From Mangrovimonas sp. YM274 (GTDB taxonomy: Bacteria > Bacteroidota > Bacteroidia > Flavobacteriales > Flavobacteriaceae), in the NCBI RefSeq assembly GCF_030908385.1, contig NZ_CP133091.1, forward strand, positions 2,971,501 to 3,035,500: DNA of 64,000 nucleotides. The letters are read 5' to 3'. Under the pieces are notes generated by a model that searched no databases, was not told where the DNA came from, and saw only the letters and a program-made list of their open reading frames with translations. The position numbers and the translations under genes were made by a program. Positions within the stretch are counted from its first letter, which is position 1. Each line of letters opens with the position of its first letter. This document shows, piece by piece, positions 43,466 through 50,238 of the stretch.

Positions 43466-44728
43466 TTAGAAGCTAATTACGGCTTCCATCATTAGTCCAT
43501 CGAATTGACCATCGTGTAAGATGCTATCTGTTGCATAACCGTCATATGTTTGGTTAACATATTCCGCTTTTACAAGAATGTTGTTTGTCATGAACCAACC
43601 AGCTGCCAAGTTGAATCTTGAAATTTCAACATCATCTCCACTTCTGTCTTCTGCATCTACCATGTTGTAACGTCCACCTACGTAGAAGTTCTCGTTGCGA
43701 CCAAATCTGTAGATTAACTCTCCAGCGTATTGGTTAGCGCTTCTTCTTTCAGCTTCAGAATTACGTCTACCGTTTGCAACCTCAACAGTTCCAAAAAACT
43801 CCAATCCTCTATATTTTACGAATGGGTTAATCATGTAAGCAGTTACTTTGTTACCAAAGTTTGGATTGTAACGTCCAGATCTGAAGTTGTCATCAGCACC
43901 TTCTTCCTGCATTACGTGGTAGTATCTTGCTCCCGTACGGTCTGCACTGTATAGGTAAGAACTTGCAACGCTACCTGTGTTGTAAAGAGACCCTGTTAAA
44001 CGTAATCTCAAATCATCAGTAACTTGTTTGTCATATCCTAATTTTGCCAAGAAAGAAGCTCCATTAGCGTCATTTTTAACTGTAGATTGGTTCAATTTAC
44101 CGTTAGAGAAGCCAACCATTCCAATGAAACCACTGTTTCTATAGTAAAGTTCTGCACCTACTTCTGTAGTGAAAGCGTCCATGATCAAGTTTCCAACAAA
44201 TGGGTTGTAGATAGCTTGCGCGTTATCACTTCTTCTAAAGTGAGCATCACCATAGTTGTTTTCCATGTGCCCAATTCTAATAGTAGTGTGTTTCATTAGG
44301 TCTTCCAAAAGTCCTTCTTTGATGAAGTCTAATTTGTCAATTTGGAAGTACCCTCCTTTTACATATGGTTCTGGGTGGTGTCTAGAACTCAAGTAAGTTC
44401 TTAAGTGCATACGTACCCCATCTGCTAGTGCCACGTCCAAATCTAAGTTTGCGGTAGCTAGGTTAAAGTTACTTCCTAATTCGTCCAAAGCCACGGCTCC
44501 TGAGTTTTCATGATCTAATGCTTGGAATTGTAAAGCGAATGATCCACCTACTCTTACTCGAATACCATCAAAAGTTGAAATGGTATCTTTTGGAGATTCA
44601 AATACATTAACACCGTTTTTATCTGGCTCTCTGTAATTGTCTAAACTTCTATGATTTTTTTGGGCATAACTGTTAAGTCCTCCGATTAACATGACTGCCA
44701 GTACTGAATTTCTAAAAATTGATTTCAT
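43466..44728 (-). CDS. Outer-membrane porin-like beta-barrel
   Basis: 420 residues. Signal peptide MKSIFRNSVLAVMLIGGLNSYAQ. Barrel strands such as RVGGSFALQFQAL, NLDLDVALADGVRMHLRTYLSS, TIRIGHMENNYGDAHFRRSDN, TEVGAELYYRN, FYVGGRYNMVDAE and the C-terminal MMEAVISF with terminal Phe (BAM signal) resemble phosphate-selective or generic porins (OprO/P-like). It is 40 bp downstream of yceI, same strand, without a promoter between, so it should share the FNR-like-controlled promoter. Confidence 0.82.
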   Translation of the reverse strand: MKSIFRNSVLAVMLIGGLNSYAQKNHRSLDNYREPDKNGVNVFESPKDTISTFDGIRVRVGGSFALQFQALDHENSGAVALDELGSNFNLATANLDLDVALADGVRMHLRTYLSSRHHPEPYVKGGYFQIDKLDFIKEGLLEDLMKHTTIRIGHMENNYGDAHFRRSDNAQAIYNPFVGNLIMDAFTTEVGAELYYRNSGFIGMVGFSNGKLNQSTVKNDANGASFLAKLGYDKQVTDDLRLRLTGSLYNTGSVASSYLYSADRTGARYYHVMQEEGADDNFRSGRYNPNFGNKVTAYMINPFVKYRGLEFFGTVEVANGRRNSEAERRSANQYAGELIYRFGRNENFYVGGRYNMVDAEDRSGDDVEISRFNLAAGWFMTNNILVKAEYVNQTYDGYATDSILHDGQFDGLMMEAVISF

Positions 44729-44768: not shown

Positions 44769-45353
44769 TTAGTTTATCATGATGGTATTAAATTCTATGG
44801 TAAGCGCATCTCCAGTGGTCACTGTTCCAAACAATGCCGTTGGAGGCTCTACATTAAAGTCGGTCATTTTAATATTCTTACTTCCTTTTAATGTAGCTTG
44901 ATTGCCTTTTAATGCAAGCTCAAAATCCAATCCTACCTTCTTGGTGGTTCCTGAAATGGTTAAGTTTCCTTCAGCAGCTACTTTGTATGTTCCATTTCCT
45001 AGATCTTGAACACTTTTAGTATTTAAAAGTTCAAAAGTGATGTACTTGTACTTGTTCGTTTTTAAAGCTTTATAGGAGTTTTTGTCCATTGCAGACTTTC
45101 CGCTCTTCAAGCTTTCGGCTTCAATTTCTATTTTAAGATTATTAATTGTAAGGCCACCTGTTGTTGTAATGTCCAAACTTCCTTTTTGATTTTCCGCAGT
45201 TTCTTCCCAATCGTGCAAGCTTGAAGTTCCTTTTACTACCAAAGTAGAGCTTTGATTGTTCAACTTGAACTGTTGTGCAAAAGAAGCTGTAGATGAAATG
45301 AACAGTAACGCCAAAACACTAAGTGCGATGTTCATTTTTTTAAGCGTTTTCAT
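44769..45353 (-). CDS. YceI family exported lipid-binding protein
   Basis: 194 residues from the Met at 45353 (signal MKTLKKMNIALSVLALLFISSTASFAQ). A frame from 45389 would extend into the 5' region and has a poor N-terminus. YceI beta-barrel lipocalin-like fold: SSTLVVKGTSSLHDWEETAEN, LKIEIEAESLKSGKSAMDKNSYKALK, ITFELLNTKSV, YKVAAEGNLTISGTTKKVGLDFEL and MTDFNVEPPTALFGTVTTGDALTIEFN. Binds isoprenoid or quinone-like lipids in the periplasm. Preceded by two FNR-like sites and a -7-like element; start site chosen agrees with a 20-nt leader. Confidence 0.92.
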   Translation of the reverse strand: MKTLKKMNIALSVLALLFISSTASFAQQFKLNNQSSTLVVKGTSSLHDWEETAENQKGSLDITTTGGLTINNLKIEIEAESLKSGKSAMDKNSYKALKTNKYKYITFELLNTKSVQDLGNGTYKVAAEGNLTISGTTKKVGLDFELALKGNQATLKGSKNIKMTDFNVEPPTALFGTVTTGDALTIEFNTIMIN

Positions 45354-45378: not shown

Positions 45379-45386
45379 CAAAGATG
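45379..45386 (-). promoter_or_regulatory. -7-like element of yceI
   Basis: Minus-strand CATCTTTG, one mismatch to TAnnTTTG; exactly 22 bp downstream of the first FNR-like site and about 26 bp upstream of the ATG. Confidence 0.55.
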
Positions 45387-45408
45387 CAACGGACGTAAGA
45401 ATTAAAAT

Positions 45409-45422
45409 ATGACATTCATCAT
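45409..45422. promoter_or_regulatory. FNR-like site 1 of the yceI-porin operon
   Basis: ATGACATTCATCAT: half-sites ATGAC and ATCAT (rc ATGAT) around four bases. Center lies 36.5 bp upstream of the last base of the -7 element, identical to hemN and uspA. Confidence 0.75.
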
Positions 45423-45446
45423 ACACCGACATAAACGACTGACAAC

Positions 45447-45460
45447 ATGACATTTATCAT
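45447..45460. promoter_or_regulatory. FNR-like site 2 of the yceI-porin operon
   Basis: ATGACATTTATCAT, 38 bp further upstream, same half-site pattern as site 1. Confidence 0.6.
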
Positions 45461-45526
45461 ATGTAAAATTTTTACTACAAAGGATGGCAAAAATGAGAAA
45501 TTCTCGTGAATTAAAAAGGCTTTTAC

Positions 45527-45552
45527 AAAAAAAATCGCCCTTAGGCGATTTT
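45527..45552 (-). terminator. Intrinsic terminator of hemN
   Basis: Stem AAAATCGCC/GGCGATTTT with a 4-nt loop, 5 bp after the hemN stop, followed by T run on the minus strand. Confidence 0.9.
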
Positions 45553-45556
45553 CAAT

Positions 45557-46918
45557 TTAAATGGTCATGGAAAAGATGGGTTTACCCGAGCTTTTCTGTT
45601 GAAGTTTAACATCAAACGCCATGCACACATTCCTTACAAAGGGCACTCCCTTTTCGGTAATCTTGATATTATTTTCTCCAATTTCAATAAGATCATCCTC
45701 TTCCATCTCTTTCAATTGCAAAACCACTTGCGGTAATGCATCAAAACACTCCTCTTTGTTTTCCCAAGATGTTTTAAACTGGCACATCAATCCCAAAATA
45801 TGTTTTCTAATAATTAAATCTTCCTCATTTAAGATATGTCCCCTAAACACAGGAATCAATCCTTCGTCAATTAATTGCTTGTAGCTTTCTATGTCTTTGG
45901 CGTTTTGAGCAAAGGCGTACCAGCTATCTCCAATAGCAGACACGCCCAAGCCAATCATCATTTGGGTTTTGGAAGCTGTGTATCCCATAAAGTTTCTATG
46001 CAACTGTTCTGTTTTCATAGCTGTGTACATGGAATCTGTAGGCAAGGCAAAATGGTCCATTCCAATCTCTTTATAACCTACTTGCTCCAAAAGCGCCTTT
46101 CCGTTTTCATATTGCTGACGTCTACTTTCGGCGGACGGCAAATCCTGTTCATTAAATCCTCTTTGACCATTCCCTTTAATCCAAGGCGTATGAGCATAAC
46201 CGTAAAATGCAATACGATCTGGTTTTAATGCCTTTGTATTTTCTATGGTTGTTTGAATATGCTCCATCTCCTGAAAAGGCAACCCAAAAATTAAATCATG
46301 GCCAATAGAGGTATACCCAATGGCCCTGGCGGCTTCTGTTACTCGTTTTACATTTTCAAAAGGTTGTACTCTATGAATGGCCTTTTGTACCTTCTCGTTA
46401 TAATCCTGAACCCCAAAACTTACTCTTCTAAACCCCAAATCGAATAAGGTTTGTAAATGAGCCTTGGTAGTATTGTTTGGATGTCCTTCAAAACTAAACT
46501 CATAACCAGGAGCCAAATCGGCACTTTCCAATATCCCTTGTATTAAGCTTCGCAGATGCTCTGGTGAAAAGAATGTAGGTGTCCCCCCTCCTAAATGCAG
46601 TTCCTTAATACTTGGTCTTTCCGGCAATAACTCGCAATACAACTCCCATTCCCGCAACACATACTCTATATAGGGCTTTTCAACTTCATGGCGCTTGGTA
46701 ATACGTTTATTACAACCACAAAAAGTGCACAGGCTTTCGCAATATGGTAAATGAACATAAAGGCTAATCCCTTCCTCCTTACTTTCAGCAAACGATGCTT
46801 TTAAGGACGCCTTCCACTGTTCTAAAGAAAAAGTGTCGGCATTCCAAAAGGGCACCGTAGGATAACTGGTATATCGAGGCCCTGGAACATTATATTTATT
46901 GACAAGATTACAATTCAT
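45557..46918 (-). CDS. hemN: Oxygen-independent coproporphyrinogen III dehydrogenase
   Basis: 453 residues, radical-SAM. The [4Fe-4S] ligands are Cys60, Cys64 and Cys67 in LPYCESLCTFCGCN (Cys69 is the extra conserved Cys of HemN), SAM motif HLGGGTPTF, and the HemN-specific C-terminal domain with QLHRNFMGYTASK and MCQFKTSW. Performs heme synthesis when oxygen is scarce. Its promoter has a TATTTTTG element with an FNR-like site 22 bp upstream. Next to uspA and the two-component system on the same strand, but each has its own promoter. Confidence 0.97.
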   Translation of the reverse strand: MNCNLVNKYNVPGPRYTSYPTVPFWNADTFSLEQWKASLKASFAESKEEGISLYVHLPYCESLCTFCGCNKRITKRHEVEKPYIEYVLREWELYCELLPERPSIKELHLGGGTPTFFSPEHLRSLIQGILESADLAPGYEFSFEGHPNNTTKAHLQTLFDLGFRRVSFGVQDYNEKVQKAIHRVQPFENVKRVTEAARAIGYTSIGHDLIFGLPFQEMEHIQTTIENTKALKPDRIAFYGYAHTPWIKGNGQRGFNEQDLPSAESRRQQYENGKALLEQVGYKEIGMDHFALPTDSMYTAMKTEQLHRNFMGYTASKTQMMIGLGVSAIGDSWYAFAQNAKDIESYKQLIDEGLIPVFRGHILNEEDLIIRKHILGLMCQFKTSWENKEECFDALPQVVLQLKEMEEDDLIEIGENNIKITEKGVPFVRNVCMAFDVKLQQKSSGKPIFSMTI

Positions 46919-46935
46919 TTTAGTTCAATTTTCGC

Positions 46936-46943
46936 CAAAAATA
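46936..46943 (-). promoter_or_regulatory. -7 element of hemN
   Basis: Minus-strand TATTTTTG, exact TAnnTTTG; about 17 bp to the hemN ATG; no -33 box where the FNR-like site takes its place. Confidence 0.7.
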
Positions 46944-46965
46944 AAAGGTACACCATCCTTAGCAT

Positions 46966-46979
46966 ATGATATTTATCAG
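46966..46979. promoter_or_regulatory. FNR-like site upstream of hemN
   Basis: ATGATATTTATCAG: half-sites ATGAT and ATCAG (one mismatch from ATCAT) around four bases, 22 bp upstream of the -7 element. Confidence 0.72.
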
Positions 46980-47020
46980 TGCAATATTTGGCTTCCTTAC
47001 AGAACCATAGAGCTCAATAG

Positions 47021-47860
47021 CTATTTAGACGGTCTATGTTCGTGAAGTACCAAAAATGGAATATTGGTTAAATAGGTAAGTTTTTTAACACTTGGCTGAA
47101 ACAACAAGCGTTGCATATAATTTAGGTTTTTAGCTACCATCGCAATTAAATCCACACCTTGATCCTCAACAAAAGACTGGATAGCAGCTTCTAGCTTTTT
47201 ATCATTAAAGAAATTGAAACTATGATGGAAATAGCTTAAAAATGCCTCTAGGTACTTTTTGTTTTTAACCTGATCAGGAAACAACTCGCTGCCCTTTTTG
47301 CATACATGCAGCACTCTGAAATTGGTATTGAAACGTTTCAGGATAGCTCCAATAGATTGCAACGTATCATCATTATAGATCATGGAAAAATCTGTAGGAA
47401 ATATAATTTCCTTGCAATCATGAAACTTGGCTTGCTGCGGTACCACCAGCGCATTACATTTTACCTTTGTAATAATTTCGTGGGTTCGAGTTCCAATTCC
47501 TGAATTTTCAAAAGTATTGGCTCCTTTAGTCCCAATAACAATGGCATCTATTTTCAGCTTTTTAACCTGACTTCTAACAGATTCAACAAAAAAATTATGA
47601 TCAACTACCGTGTGAAATGTAAAATGATGCCCTTTTGGAAGCTCCTTTTCTATATTTGAGCGCAGCTGCTCTAATCGTCTATAGGTTTCATCCTGAAGGG
47701 TAACAAGCTCTGTTGCCGACAGATTTGCCATACCATTTCTCAACACATTTACATGCAGCAAAAAAAACTCACAGGACACCCCTTCATAAAACTTGATGGC
47801 GTATCTAATGGAGTTTAATGAGTTTTCTGAAAAATCTGTTGGTAATAGTATATTTTTCAT
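47021..47860 (-). CDS. Tandem universal stress protein (UspA)
   Basis: 279 residues with two Usp domains: first MKNILLPTDFSENSLNSIRYAIKFY with VIGTKGANTF and ALVVPQQ (about 1-145), second EIIFPTDFSMIYNDDTLQSIGAIL (about 150-279). ATP-binding glycines of the first domain (GTKGANTFENSGIGTRTHEI) are partly kept; the second lacks the GxxG-9x-G(S/T) motif. A stress or hypoxia-linked modulator. Its promoter has the same FNR-like geometry as hemN. Confidence 0.9.
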   Translation of the reverse strand: MKNILLPTDFSENSLNSIRYAIKFYEGVSCEFFLLHVNVLRNGMANLSATELVTLQDETYRRLEQLRSNIEKELPKGHHFTFHTVVDHNFFVESVRSQVKKLKIDAIVIGTKGANTFENSGIGTRTHEIITKVKCNALVVPQQAKFHDCKEIIFPTDFSMIYNDDTLQSIGAILKRFNTNFRVLHVCKKGSELFPDQVKNKKYLEAFLSYFHHSFNFFNDKKLEAAIQSFVEDQGVDLIAMVAKNLNYMQRLLFQPSVKKLTYLTNIPFLVLHEHRPSK

Positions 47861-47878
47861 TGTTCACACTTTCTTACA

Positions 47879-47886
47879 CAAAAGTA
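47879..47886 (-). promoter_or_regulatory. -7 element of uspA
   Basis: Minus-strand TACTTTTG, exact TAnnTTTG, 18 bp before the ATG. Confidence 0.7.
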
Positions 47887-47908
47887 ATTTGAAAGTGTTT
47901 TTAAAAAT

Positions 47909-47922
47909 ATGATTTAAATCAT
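47909..47922. promoter_or_regulatory. FNR-like site upstream of uspA
   Basis: ATGATTTAAATCAT, a perfect ATGAT-N4-ATCAT palindrome, 22 bp upstream of the -7 element; directly behind the response-regulator gene. Confidence 0.78.
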
Positions 47923-47942: not shown

Positions 47943-48998
47943 TTAGTGCATATCTTGCAACCTTTCCAAATCTAAAATTCGTATGTTTTTTCCTTTAATT
48001 TCAATAATACCCTGTTTCTTGAAATTGGAAAGGGTTCTAATTAAAGTTTCGGGAGCAATGCCAGCCACACTGGCCAAATCACTTCTAGAAATTGTTATGG
48101 CCTTATTGGTATCGTGGTTAAGTTTTTCTGCAAATTTTATAATCGTAGAAGCTGTTTTTTTATTGACAGAACTGTAGGCCATTTGCAACAATTGATCCTT
48201 AATACCTAAAATATCGTTGGTAAGAAGTTGCATTAATTCCAACGCAATTTTATGGTTATTATCCAACAAATCCTTCAGGGTCTTCTTGGAAATGCAAGCC
48301 ACCTCTGTATCAACTATGGCTGTCGCCGTTTCTTGATAGGGTCTGTCTTGAGAAAAGGAGGCATAACCAAACAGGTCGTCTTCATTATAAAGTGACGTTG
48401 TTAGATCTTTACCCAGTTCATCCAACTTATGGCTTTTTACCGAACCCTTTGTAATTAAATAAATGAAGTTTGAATTTTGACCTTCTTCATATATCGTATC
48501 CCCTTTTTGAAAACAAATAACATCGCCATTGTCATCAAAAAAGTTTTTTAAATCGTTCAAGGTTTCCAACTCGTCCGCATTGGCTTCTGGAACAGGCATT
48601 TCTTGCGACGCACGCTGGTCCTTTAAAATTTCGGATTTTGCCAACCTGCTCTCAATGGCATTAATAAGTTCATCTTCTTGAAAAGGTTTAGGGATGTAAT
48701 CATCGGCCCCCAATTCCATTCCCTTCCGTACGTCTTTACGTTCAGTTTTGGCAGATAAAAATATGAACGGAATATACTTAGTGTCTTCATCTTTAGATAA
48801 AGCCTCCAAGACGCCATATCCATCCAGTTCAGGCATCATAATATCACAAATTACAATGTTTGGAAGGTCGTCCTTTATGTGTTCAATTGCATGTTTACCA
48901 TTAGGTGCCGTGTTCACCGAATACCCAGAGAGTTCTAATAATTCGGCGGTATTTTCCCTAAGCATGGTATCATCTTCAATCAACAGTATTTTCTTCAT
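47943..48998 (-). CDS. Response regulator: receiver domain fused to CRP/FNR-type sensor and HTH domains
   Basis: 351 residues. Receiver domain 1-120: acidic Asp9/Asp10, phospho-Asp52 in CDIMMPELDGYG, Ser82 and Lys104. A linker is followed by a cNMP-binding-like beta-roll (about 150-245; ICFQKGDTIYEEGQNSNFIYLITKGSV) and a CRP-type HTH (about 275-340) with recognition helix region SRSDLASVAGIAPETLIRTLSNFKKQG. Glu317 and Arg321 match the DNA-contacting ETxxR of CRP and FNR, which read a TGA core; no Fe-S cysteine cluster is visible. The gene overlaps the kinase gene by 23 bp, so it is the cognate regulator. Probably binds the ATGAY-N4-RTCAT sites at uspA, hemN and yceI. Confidence 0.92.
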   Translation of the reverse strand: MKKILLIEDDTMLRENTAELLELSGYSVNTAPNGKHAIEHIKDDLPNIVICDIMMPELDGYGVLEALSKDEDTKYIPFIFLSAKTERKDVRKGMELGADDYIPKPFQEDELINAIESRLAKSEILKDQRASQEMPVPEANADELETLNDLKNFFDDNGDVICFQKGDTIYEEGQNSNFIYLITKGSVKSHKLDELGKDLTTSLYNEDDLFGYASFSQDRPYQETATAIVDTEVACISKKTLKDLLDNNHKIALELMQLLTNDILGIKDQLLQMAYSSVNKKTASTIIKFAEKLNHDTNKAITISRSDLASVAGIAPETLIRTLSNFKKQGIIEIKGKNIRILDLERLQDMH

Positions 48999-50238
48999 AT
49001 TTTATTTTATTTGGGATGGACATTACAAAGGTGGTCCCTTGATTTTCTTTGCTGTCAAAGGTAAGATTCCCCCCTAAATTTTTCAAGTGACTTTTTACAA
49101 TATTCAAGCCTATTCCGGTACCTTCTACCAACAGCACGTTTTCAGCCCTAAAATAGCGTTTAAATATATTTTTCTGATCTTTTTTAGGGATTCCCACCCC
49201 TTCATCAATCACTTTAAAGATAGTATTGTCCTTCTTCTGCTTAATTACAATTTTAATAGTAGAGTTTTCTGGGGAATATTTAATCGCGTTGCGCACCAAA
49301 TTAGAAAGTCCCAATTCAACAATTTTCTCATCTTGAGTCAAACTAATGTCGTCAATATCTTCTGGGTAGATAATATTTTGGCCTTCCTTTAAAAGCATAT
49401 TGGCATCGTAAATGACTTCATTAACCACTTTACTCAACTTAAAGGTGCTTACTTGGTAGCTTATGTTACCGGTTTCCAATTTTTCTATGGAAAGGAAGTC
49501 TGTAAGTATGTTATTAAGGTAATGTACCTTATTGGTGATATTCCCTATTTGCTTATCGCGCTTCTCTTGATGCTCTGTCAATTTATATTTTCCTAAAAGC
49601 ATGGTAGAGGTTAAAATACCGCTGAGAGGTGTTTTAAACTCGTGAGACACCAAGGACAAAAATTTTGTCTTTAAATCGTTGAGCTCCTTTTCCTTTTTAA
49701 GGGCCTTTTTAACCTTCTTTTCAGCCTCCAGTCGCTTCTCGTTTTCCATCCTCAACTCCAAGTTCAACACTTTGAGTTCTTCTACCGATTCACTCAACGC
49801 CTCCGTTCTTTTAGCTACCTTCTGTTCCAATTCTGCATTCAAATCCAAAATTTCCTTTTCATGCTGCTTTCTAACGGAAATATCACTAATGATGGCCATT
49901 ACAATCTTTTGACCATGAAGTTCTACAATGTTCAAACCTATTTCTACAGGAAACAAATTGCCATCCTTTTTAAGGGCAAACAAATCCATGCCCTTTCCCA
50001 TTTGACGGGATCGATCCTCGGAAATGAACATGCTTACTTTTTTTTCATGACCATGTTGATGGTCTTTAGGAAGAAGAATAGACAACGGCTGCTGCAAGAG
50101 CTCATCATGCTCATAGCCAAACATATTCTCGGCAGAAGAGTTGGTCGCAATGATAGTATGATTTTGATTTACAACAACAACTCCTTCCGAAACAGATTCA
50201 AAAAGGAGCTGAAAAACGTCATTTTCTCTTTTTAACAT
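48976..50238 (-). CDS. PAS-domain sensor histidine kinase (soluble)
   Basis: 420 residues, no transmembrane segment. PAS domain about 8-125, coiled-coil linker 130-190, HisKA with phospho-acceptor His199 in SLVSHEFKTPLSG, and HATPase with NLVRNAIKYSP (N box), DEGVGIP and GTGIGLNIV (G boxes). The PAS segment DHQHGHEKKVSMFISEDRSRQMGKGM aligns without gaps to my recollection of the FixL heme-PAS F-helix, placing His64 at the heme-ligand position; the distal Arg of FixL is a Met here. Heme binding is inference. First gene of the kinase-regulator operon. Confidence 0.88.
   Translation of the reverse strand: MLKRENDVFQLLFESVSEGVVVVNQNHTIIATNSSAENMFGYEHDELLQQPLSILLPKDHQHGHEKKVSMFISEDRSRQMGKGMDLFALKKDGNLFPVEIGLNIVELHGQKIVMAIISDISVRKQHEKEILDLNAELEQKVAKRTEALSESVEELKVLNLELRMENEKRLEAEKKVKKALKKEKELNDLKTKFLSLVSHEFKTPLSGILTSTMLLGKYKLTEHQEKRDKQIGNITNKVHYLNNILTDFLSIEKLETGNISYQVSTFKLSKVVNEVIYDANMLLKEGQNIIYPEDIDDISLTQDEKIVELGLSNLVRNAIKYSPENSTIKIVIKQKKDNTIFKVIDEGVGIPKKDQKNIFKRYFRAENVLLVEGTGIGLNIVKSHLKNLGGNLTFDSKENQGTTFVMSIPNKIKYEENTVD

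Follow-up and report, generated by a model that had tools for sequence, protein, structure and literature searches.

A CRP/FNR-type palindrome at a fixed distance from the −7 element of Mangrovimonas promoters, with a neighbouring receiver-CRP fusion as candidate activator

Sites and spacing in the window

Three promoters in a 64,000-nucleotide stretch of the Mangrovimonas sp. YM274 genome (the window), those of uspA, hemN and yceI, carry a TGAY-N4-RTCA palindrome followed after exactly 22 bp by a −7 element, and this rigid spacing recurs across the family and in orthologous promoters. We think it rather likely that these are class II CRP/FNR-dependent promoters operating on the Bacteroidota polymerase and probably driven, at low oxygen, by a neighbouring receiver-CRP fusion protein and a haem-PAS kinase.

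All of these features lie on the minus strand. The uspA promoter comprises the operator ATGATTTAAATCAT (47909–47922, centred at about −41.5) and the −7 element TACTTTTG (47879–47886), the hemN promoter the operator CTGATAAATATCAT (46966–46979) and the −7 element TATTTTTG (46936–46943), and the yceI promoter the operator ATGATGAATGTCAT (45409–45422) and the −7 element CATCTTTG (45379–45386), the first base of which is C, correcting an earlier note. The TGA-N6-TCA palindrome of class II CRP/FNR-dependent promoters is thus found at the window sites, and the sites, −7 elements and 22-bp gaps are all in the sequence as the initial annotation gave them; its pattern RTGAY-N4-RTCAY stands except at the hemN site, where an outermost base is C instead of A or G. 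The 22-bp gap is counted from the 14-mer site, the same spacing being a core gap of 23 in the counts below. A second palindrome, ATGATAAATGTCAT (45447–45460, minus strand), is indeed present 38 bp upstream of the first yceI site; in the two close relatives examined (L136 and L137) no 4-bp-spaced palindrome is left at this place. The chance of three RTGAY-N4-RTCAY sites within 2.6 kb is about 5e-6 (Poisson, genome density), a post hoc figure that is indicative only.

Spacing in the genome and across the family

Taken alone, RTGAY-N4-RTCAY is not enriched in the Mangrovimonas genome, with 46 places versus 49 when the pattern is reversed. The loose pattern TGATN5TCA, in which the gap is free, gave 72 matches, seven at core gap 23 and six at gap 24; the inner RTCA was present in six of the former seven and in none of the latter six. 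Since neither the palindrome alone nor the loose pattern gives a clear signal, the argument is built on the full palindrome together with its spacing and on the orthologues. The full palindrome combined with the −7 element has eight matches in this genome at the window gap, none at a gap 3 bp shorter and none when reversed. Across 199 genomes of the family, 1906 matches were found at core gap 23 versus 180 at gap 20 and 117 for the reversed pattern, gap 23 exceeding gap 20 in 173 genomes, equalling it in 17 and falling below it in nine. The possibility that the sites are equally frequent at random positions, named beforehand as a refutation, therefore holds for the bare palindrome and fails for the palindrome with its spacing.

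Among 80 named loci, 160 of the 215 palindrome/TAnnTTTG pairs with gaps of 0–59 lie at exactly gap 23. The secondary peaks comprise gap 33 (13 matches, all inside the PAS coding sequence as judged by eye), gap 12 (seven matches), and gaps 24 and 25, at which six of 11 and three of five matches, respectively, are kinase-upstream palindromes belonging to divergent promoters. These counts show that, as in class II CRP/FNR-dependent promoters, the distance between site and core promoter element is fixed, and this distance is compatible with a site centre at −41.5.

Conservation in orthologous promoters

Both motif and spacing are kept in the hemN, ccoI and uspA sets of orthologous promoters, the outcome that the initial annotation had named as supporting its reading. 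With up to one mismatch allowed, the site was found in 28 of 30 hemN and 28 of 30 ccoI promoters of the whole-genome set (base-shuffled windows: 3/3600), at the window gap in 74 of 75 uspA promoters adjoining the regulator gene, and in five of seven yceI homologues. It is absent from two ccoI promoters and from one hemN promoter (L268), the genome of which (G053) has CRP-type helix-turn-helix (HTH) proteins and the fusion. A first hemN count of 4/10 in neighbouring loci, which may include HemN paralogues, is superseded by the whole-genome set.

In 31 relatives a palindrome lies between the kinase gene and a divergent promoter. In 29 of the 31 the opposite strand has a −7 element (up to one mismatch) at gap 23 from this palindrome, and all the other gaps between 15 and 31 together account for just two cases; these figures come from a recount of every gap without ties, an earlier listing of the 'best gap' having favoured 23 in ties.

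Position relative to the transcription start

Class II CRP/FNR sites of Proteobacteria are centred at −41.5 and overlap the −35 region. As the Flavobacterium psychrophilum promoter map (PMC9723704) places the TAnnTTTG −7 box at −12 to −5, the window sites would be centred at −41.5, which agrees with the class II activator position proposed for them. The claimed absence of a −33 box also holds as regards TTTG, which is found at the −33 distance in none of the three window promoters as read from the sequence. The flank of the site is asymmetric and carries a T-tract (about −34 to −30); in relatives a T-rich tract lies roughly at the −33 distance. Among 101 class II promoters TTTG occurs 18–22 nt before the −7 box in two, versus two of 116 ordinary promoters from the same loci, a comparison set contaminated by unfiltered sites and too impure to serve; the T-run itself yields TTTG at gaps 14, 15 and 16 in 5, 2 and 10%.

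Probable target genes

The window targets, all on the minus strand, are uspA (47021–47860; Pfam Usp), hemN (45557–46918; oxygen-independent coproporphyrinogen III oxidase, TIGR00538 above cut-off) and yceI (44769–45353; YceI family by Pfam, start codon picked by eye). Downstream of yceI is a gene called porin-like in the initial annotation (43466–44728, minus strand), which has no Pfam or NCBIfam match and is possibly co-transcribed with yceI. Elsewhere in the genome, sites precede the cbb3 oxidase operon (the ccoI promoter heads a fixI-fixS-fixNO-fixP-fixG-fixH gene run), more UspA genes, PPDK and a carboxylase; the targets include MeaB, PEPCK behind a UspA gene, and a carboxyl transferase with a glyoxalase-fold epimerase. 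These genes bear out the low-oxygen and stress functions ascribed to the targets; the idea of a local regulon proved too narrow, the same geometry occurring elsewhere in this genome, in relatives and across many families of the class.

Candidate activator and partner kinase

The likely regulator gene adjoins uspA and had been missed in the initial annotation. It encodes a 351-aa candidate activator (47943–48998, minus strand; Pfam, orthologues) with a receiver (PF00072), a cNMP-binding domain (PF00027) and a CRP-type HTH (PF13545), the latter two above cut-off, and this pairing of cNMP-binding fold and CRP-type HTH is that of the CRP/FNR superfamily. The acidic pair, phospho-acceptor Asp and Lys of a response regulator are present (D9, D10, D52, K104) and, with E317 and R321, invariant in 31 aligned sequences. 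The output consists of the cNMP fold and CRP HTH, with no FixJ-type LuxR (GerE) domain. Nor is there an N-terminal FNR cysteine cluster, the whole protein having three Cys and its N-terminus being the receiver; the label 'FNR-type' is apt for DNA recognition, but control would be exerted by a kinase rather than by such a cluster.

Of the two CRP HTH proteins found in the genome, the fusion alone has Pro-Glu...Arg at the reading positions (CRP alignment by eye). A published comparison (PMC1274295) links TTGAC-N4-GTCAA sites to Pro or Ser at the first reading position; at reading position 180 the window fusion has Pro, whereas the consensus of its orthologues has Thr. The other CRP-family protein (L075, 210 residues, at 1907061) carries Val in its recognition helix at the place of CRP Glu181, again by eye, and its neighbours resemble, by eye, a metallo-beta-lactamase-fold protein and a permease.

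The candidate partner histidine kinase (48976–50238, minus strand), with haem-type PAS, HisKA and HATPase domains (Pfam), overlaps the fusion gene by 23 bp. FixL was its best match among PDB sequences (1d06, phmmer E 4.7e-12), the PAS model matched FixL 1d06 with a Foldseek E of 1.3e-10 (VIA-align Z 16.5, rmsd 2.4, 119 aligned), and the 15 best Foldseek matches were all haem-PAS proteins. Both in sequence and in modelled fold the PAS domain thus resembles the haem-PAS oxygen sensors FixL and DosP, and it may sense oxygen likewise. Kinase His64 aligns to the residue that we take to be the haem His of FixL; 50 of 68 aligned kinases have His here and 18 have Phe, the latter probably being other kinases. 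The distal Arg220 of FixL, matched by Arg in 45 of the 50 haem-type kinases, is Met84 in the window kinase, and because of this Met we do not claim FixL membership for it.

Regulator genes and site number in relatives

Of the 171 sampled relatives that have a strong CRP-type HTH, 166 contain at least one site match. Matches per genome averaged 13.97 with the fusion (n = 86), 7.93 with another strong CRP HTH (n = 85; five of these genomes, which lack the fusion, have zero matches), 0.77 with a weak CRP HTH only (n = 13) and 1.40 with none (n = 15); one genome with no CRP HTH found (G147, 73% complete) has seven matches. Where a relative lacks the fusion, its plain CRP/FNR proteins presumably act at the same sites. 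Because 85 of the 199 genomes have sites and another strong CRP HTH but no fusion, the fusion is assigned by elimination in the Mangrovimonas genome, where it is most likely the activator.

Proposed mechanism and alternatives

In the mechanism that we propose, an activator dimer would occupy [AC]TGAY-N4-RTCAT centred at −41.5, lie over the position of the −33 contact and bring polymerase to the lone TAnnTTTG element. When oxygen is low, the haem-PAS kinase encoded by the overlapping gene would phosphorylate itself and hand the phosphate on to Asp52 of the fusion, favouring DNA binding, and the fusion would turn on microaerobic respiration (the cbb3 oxidase operon), oxygen-independent haem synthesis, UspA proteins and C3/fermentative metabolism.

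The signal may differ within the same class II geometry, the PAS domain binding another ligand or the cNMP fold sensing a metabolite, which would make this a carbon/stress regulon. The UspA genes, PPDK, PEPCK, the epimerase with its carboxyl transferase and MeaB among the targets would suit such a regulon, as would Met at the FixL Arg220 position and the carbon sensing predicted for Flavobacteriales CRP/FNR homologues in PMC8510549; yet hemN is a classic low-oxygen target, as is a complete run of cbb3 genes, and the haem-PAS character of all 15 best PAS matches and His64 in 50/68 kinases also make this reading unlikely. That a different protein, such as L075, occupies the sites here is improbable: it is the sole other CRP HTH protein found in the genome, and relatives that lack the fusion presumably serve such sites with plain CRP proteins, but its recognition-helix Val and its neighbours speak against it.

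CRP-type proteins are able to repress, and the palindrome between kinase and divergent promoter in 31 relatives could be read as an operator. Repressor operators usually vary in position, however, whereas these sites keep rigidly to a single position, −41.5, and only 2/101 promoters have TTTG at the −33 distance, a signature of activation; we regard repression, or a mixture of repression and activation, as very improbable. The background frequency of RTGAY-N4-RTCAY in the genome and the lack of a clear peak with loose patterns would be expected of coincidental palindromes in AT-rich DNA, an explanation rendered negligible by the joint-pattern counts (1906 versus 180 and 117) and by the retention of the site in orthologous promoters.

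Activation by the fusion can be set in a wider frame, on which our judgement is evenly balanced. Throughout the class, presumably Bacteroidia, CRP/FNR activators would act mainly at one rigid class II position that replaces the sigma −33 contact, with a T-tract beneath, so that the geometry reveals targets and direction. The driver in Flavobacteriaceae would be a plain FNR-like protein, a haem-kinase-controlled FixJ-FixK fusion, or both, and Mangrovimonas would have kept only the fusion.

Comparison with known systems

Bacteroidota have an unusual primary sigma factor and −7 element, and to our knowledge the way in which activators engage this factor is poorly described. One exact geometry that predicts targets and promoter direction makes activator use in Bacteroidota testable and supplies a ready candidate oxygen regulon for the Flavobacteriaceae, which are abundant in the sea and include fish pathogens; it would also help explain gene activation at low oxygen in this large bacterial group. 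Full-text searches of an open-access library turned up no description of the regulon. The F. psychrophilum promoter map has TAnnTTTG in common with the promoters described here and records higher expression of cbb3 oxidase and haem synthesis genes under oxygen limitation; the text seen names no regulator for these genes, and the words 'crp' and 'fnr' do not occur in the main text (PMC9723704).

The likeness to the class II CRP/FNR promoters of Proteobacteria lies in TGA-N6-TCA at a probable −41.5 and perhaps in a weak or missing upstream sigma element; here, instead, the −7 element is TAnnTTTG, read by an unusual primary sigma factor, the T-tract flank is asymmetric and nearly one fixed spacing is used. 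With the [4Fe-4S] sensors FNR and FnrN the fusion shares the E..R recognition helix and an FNR-like palindrome, but it differs in having no cysteine cluster and an N-terminal receiver domain. NmpRSTU of Myxococcus xanthus is likewise a haem-dependent kinase system linked to hemN, the promoter of which is bound by its regulator, and to a cbb3 oxidase, which that regulator controls; but the sensor is a protoglobin and the regulator NtrC-like, as against PAS and CRP domains here, and 'universal stress protein' appears 12 times in the text of that paper (PMC11841059).

FixK controls the cbb3 operon and hemN, both of which are also targets here. The FixL-FixJ-FixK system of Rhizobiales and Caulobacterales, as set out in PMC4999443, shares a haem-PAS-type kinase, a receiver and a CRP/FNR-type protein that lacks an iron-sulphur cluster, but here receiver and CRP domain form one protein with no FixJ-type output domain, so that there is no transcriptional FixJ-to-FixK step. 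The fusion beside a haem-PAS-type kinase would pack a cascade of two regulators into a single protein.

Spacing between the palindrome and the -7 element

On the minus strand of the window, uspA, hemN and yceI are each preceded by a 14-bp palindrome lying 22 bp upstream of a -7 element, and re-reading of the sequence bore out the coordinates, spacing and site sequences given for them in the initial annotation. The hemN site deviates from its consensus, RTGAY-N4-RTCAY, at one outer base, and the -7 element of yceI starts with C. For a perfect palindrome elsewhere in the window (GTGATATTTATCAC, 975-988), neither strand shows a -7 element at a downstream distance of 10-40 bp.

In the 3.82 Mb genome carrying the window the palindrome alone is not enriched (46 occurrences of RTGAY-N4-RTCAY vs 49 of the reversed pattern), which taken alone is evidence against the finding. 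The possibility raised initially, that the sites are equally frequent at random positions, thus holds for the palindrome by itself but not for the palindrome with its spacing: TGAY-N4-RTCA followed after 23 bp (22 bp when counted from the 14-mer) by NANNTTTG occurs 1906 times in 199 genomes of the family vs 117 times for the reversed pattern. A 20-bp gap, the single shifted gap used as a family-wide control, gave 180 matches, and per genome the 23-bp count was larger than the 20-bp count in 173, equal in 17 and smaller in nine. Across the class, sampled with 295 genomes, the 284 outside the host's own and one other family of the order (70 families) held 1708 matches vs 121 for the reversed pattern, the control at this level; 62 of the 70 families exceeded the control and five had no match.

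Within the host's own genome, 42 occurrences of RTGAY-N4-RTCAY lie outside the window, assigned by a simple ORF rule to intergenic (11) or ORF-internal (31) positions; NANNTTTG stands exactly 22 bp further on in four of the former and one of the latter. The looser pattern TGATN5TCA with a gap of 8-38 bp before NANNTTTG gave 72 matches vs 28 for the reversed control, 11 of the 72 being copies of one repeat. Counted from the listed lengths, seven matches have a gap of 23 and six a gap of 24, with the inner RTCA present in six of the seven and in none of the six. At 80 named regulator loci (1.59 Mb), 160 of 215 palindrome/TAnnTTTG pairs with gaps of 0-59 sit at exactly 23, the next largest counts being 8 and 7; as these loci have a common neighbourhood, the genome-wide count is the stronger evidence.

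The logo of these 160 sites reads [AC]TGAY-N-WW-T-RTCAT, turns T-rich across core positions 14-18 and has TAnnTTTG at 36-43, its fixed letters being imposed by the search pattern. Published work on Flavobacterium psychrophilum (PMC9723704) places the TAnnTTTG box at -12 to -5, which would centre the core on -41.5, with the T-rich stretch spanning roughly -34 to -30. A TTTG 18-22 nt upstream of the -7 box occurs in 2 of 101 promoters with this geometry and likewise in 2 of 116 promoters of an impure comparison set, so these counts do not mark the lack of a -33 box as a distinctive feature.

Conservation of the sites

Conservation in orthologous promoters, proposed initially as a check, is borne out at up to one mismatch for hemN (28/30) and ccoI (28/30), vs 3 of 3600 base-shuffled windows, and also for uspA (74/75) and yceI (5/7 homologues). 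The regulator gene is followed directly by uspA at 75 of the 80 loci, with 67 exact sites, seven with one mismatch and one with two. For hemN, which an E cut-off of 1e-100 recovers in 55 of 80 genomes, the 30 best-scoring promoters (the host's own and one of its genus included) comprised 27 exact sites, one with one mismatch and two without a match; one siteless promoter (L267) is from a genome without a CRP HTH (G023), and the other (L268, genome G053) is a true exception. For ccoI (62/80 genomes at E up to 1e-60; 30 promoters used, L269-L298) two sites were exact, 26 had one mismatch, mostly at the first T of the -7 box, and two promoters had none. The seven yceI homologues, in six loci, gave five one-mismatch sites, one two-mismatch site and one without a match.

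In 31 of 49 relatives (e.g. L139, L152, L171 and L196) an exact palindrome also precedes the haem-type kinase gene, at a variable distance from that gene's own -7 box; the kinase promoter in the window lacks one. On the same strand -7 elements occur three times at gap 23, eight times at gap 24 and otherwise scattered, whereas on the opposite strand an element with up to one mismatch stands at gap 23 in 29 of the 31 and only twice elsewhere in gaps 15-31. In 23 of the 31 the palindrome finishes with ATCAG, the reverse of the usual flank. These palindromes are best read as belonging to divergent promoters, and the flank asymmetry predicts promoter direction.

The candidate regulator and putative sensor kinase

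The 351-aa protein encoded beside uspA has receiver, cNMP-binding and CRP HTH domains; two named Mangrovimonas genomes encode versions with 95% identity, which places the host close to Mangrovimonas. The CRP part of the protein matches the models for FNR, FixK and CRP, all below cut-off, and none of the best 60 of 393 PDB sequence matches spans both halves. D9, D10, D52, K104, E317 and R321 are invariant among 31 aligned orthologues. Aligned by eye to E. coli CRP, positions 180, 181 and 185 (CRP numbering) are Pro, Glu and Arg in the regulator and Thr, Glu and Arg in the orthologue consensus. A published comparison (PMC1274295) associates an Arg180-to-Pro/Ser change with TTGAC-N4-GTCAA sites. 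One further CRP HTH protein was found in this genome (L075), with Val, by eye, at 181; as just these two were found, the fusion is the remaining candidate activator. The regulator structure model (pLDDT 79.5, pTM 0.58) is weaker than that of the kinase PAS domain and carries no argument.

Scored as full-length with E below 1e-70, the fusion is present in 86 of the 199 genomes; the match in G194 covers residues 1-245 only. Pattern matches per genome averaged 13.97 with the fusion (n = 86), 7.93 with another strong CRP HTH (n = 85, five with zero), 0.77 with only a weak one (n = 13) and 1.40 without any (n = 15), a link that is correlational because genome size varies between these groups. One genome without a detected CRP HTH (G147, assembly 73% complete) has seven class II pattern matches. 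A plain CRP gene divergently adjoins ccoI in several relatives (e.g. G015, G029, G038 and G045), and at eight of the 80 loci one with the E..R helix follows the regulator gene at a distance of about 1 kb.

The reading frames of kinase and regulator share 23 bp (window 48976-48998), which suggests a single transcript and coupled translation. For the kinase PAS domain the best PDB sequence match is FixL, and the 15 best Foldseek matches of its model (pLDDT 85.5) are all haem-PAS proteins; in VIA-align they fill 15 of the 20 top rows, and other PAS proteins follow closely. His64 aligns to the haem His, and 50 of the 68 kinases aligned have it, including that of the window; it is invariant in alignment A2, which drew on His-bearing sequences only. 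The other 18 (L149, L153, L154, L204 and 14 more) have Phe in its place and a 3-residue deletion; they are probably different kinases, the alternative being that they are non-haem partners. The Arg220 position is Met in the window's kinase.

Predicted regulon

Allowing one mismatch, the host's genome gave 25 matches vs 7 for the reversed control, so some one-mismatch matches are expected to be chance. Intergenic matches with a close downstream gene include those of uspA, hemN and yceI in the window, and precede genes for a pyridine-nucleotide oxidoreductase (with, by eye, a ferredoxin-like gene behind), a glyoxalase-fold epimerase with carboxyl transferase, MeaB, PPDK, MlaE, HlyD, five further UspA proteins (one as the second gene, another followed by PEPCK) and a P-type ATPase, the first gene of a FixI-FixS-FixNO-FixP-FixG-FixH run that reads as a cbb3 oxidase operon. 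FixN (COX1) and FixO are fused there into one 729-aa cbb3 oxidase subunit (L299, 4206-6395, minus strand). A gene encoding at least 490 aa with no Pfam match (L217, from 1572) also has an exact-match site in front of it. Two intergenic matches (L231 and L233) have no listed downstream gene. Six further matches fall within ORFs of the opposite strand, and the ORF rule classes the acetyl-CoA hydrolase site (L234) as internal.

The weakened -7 element TAnnTTTA stands before three UspA genes and PPDK (L222, L224, L226 and L227); target subclasses with a weakened element (these and ccoI) possibly differ in a graded dependence on the activator.

A 33-bp sequence, TGATTTTCCTCA[CT]GGAAAATCCTCGCAA[CT]TTTG, occurs in 11 clustered copies in the genome (contig C1: 54656, 56304, 1555838, 1558350, 1563931, 1566182, 3131006, 3138334, 3142418, 3189339 and 3197323) and would be a multi-copy element or gene family.

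Comparison with known systems

Class II activation is textbook knowledge in other phyla. We found no account of this class II geometry or regulon for Bacteroidota in open-access full texts, which does not prove its absence. Given the observed site, its rigid spacing and conservation, its association with CRP-type genes and the domain make-up, we envisage an activator centred at -41.5 that would replace the -33 contact, with the putative haem kinase phosphorylating the regulator at low oxygen. The regulator is not a FixJ, because its output domain differs, nor an iron-sulphur FNR, because it has no cysteine cluster. The system would instead work like FixL-FixJ-FixK, with the last two proteins fused.
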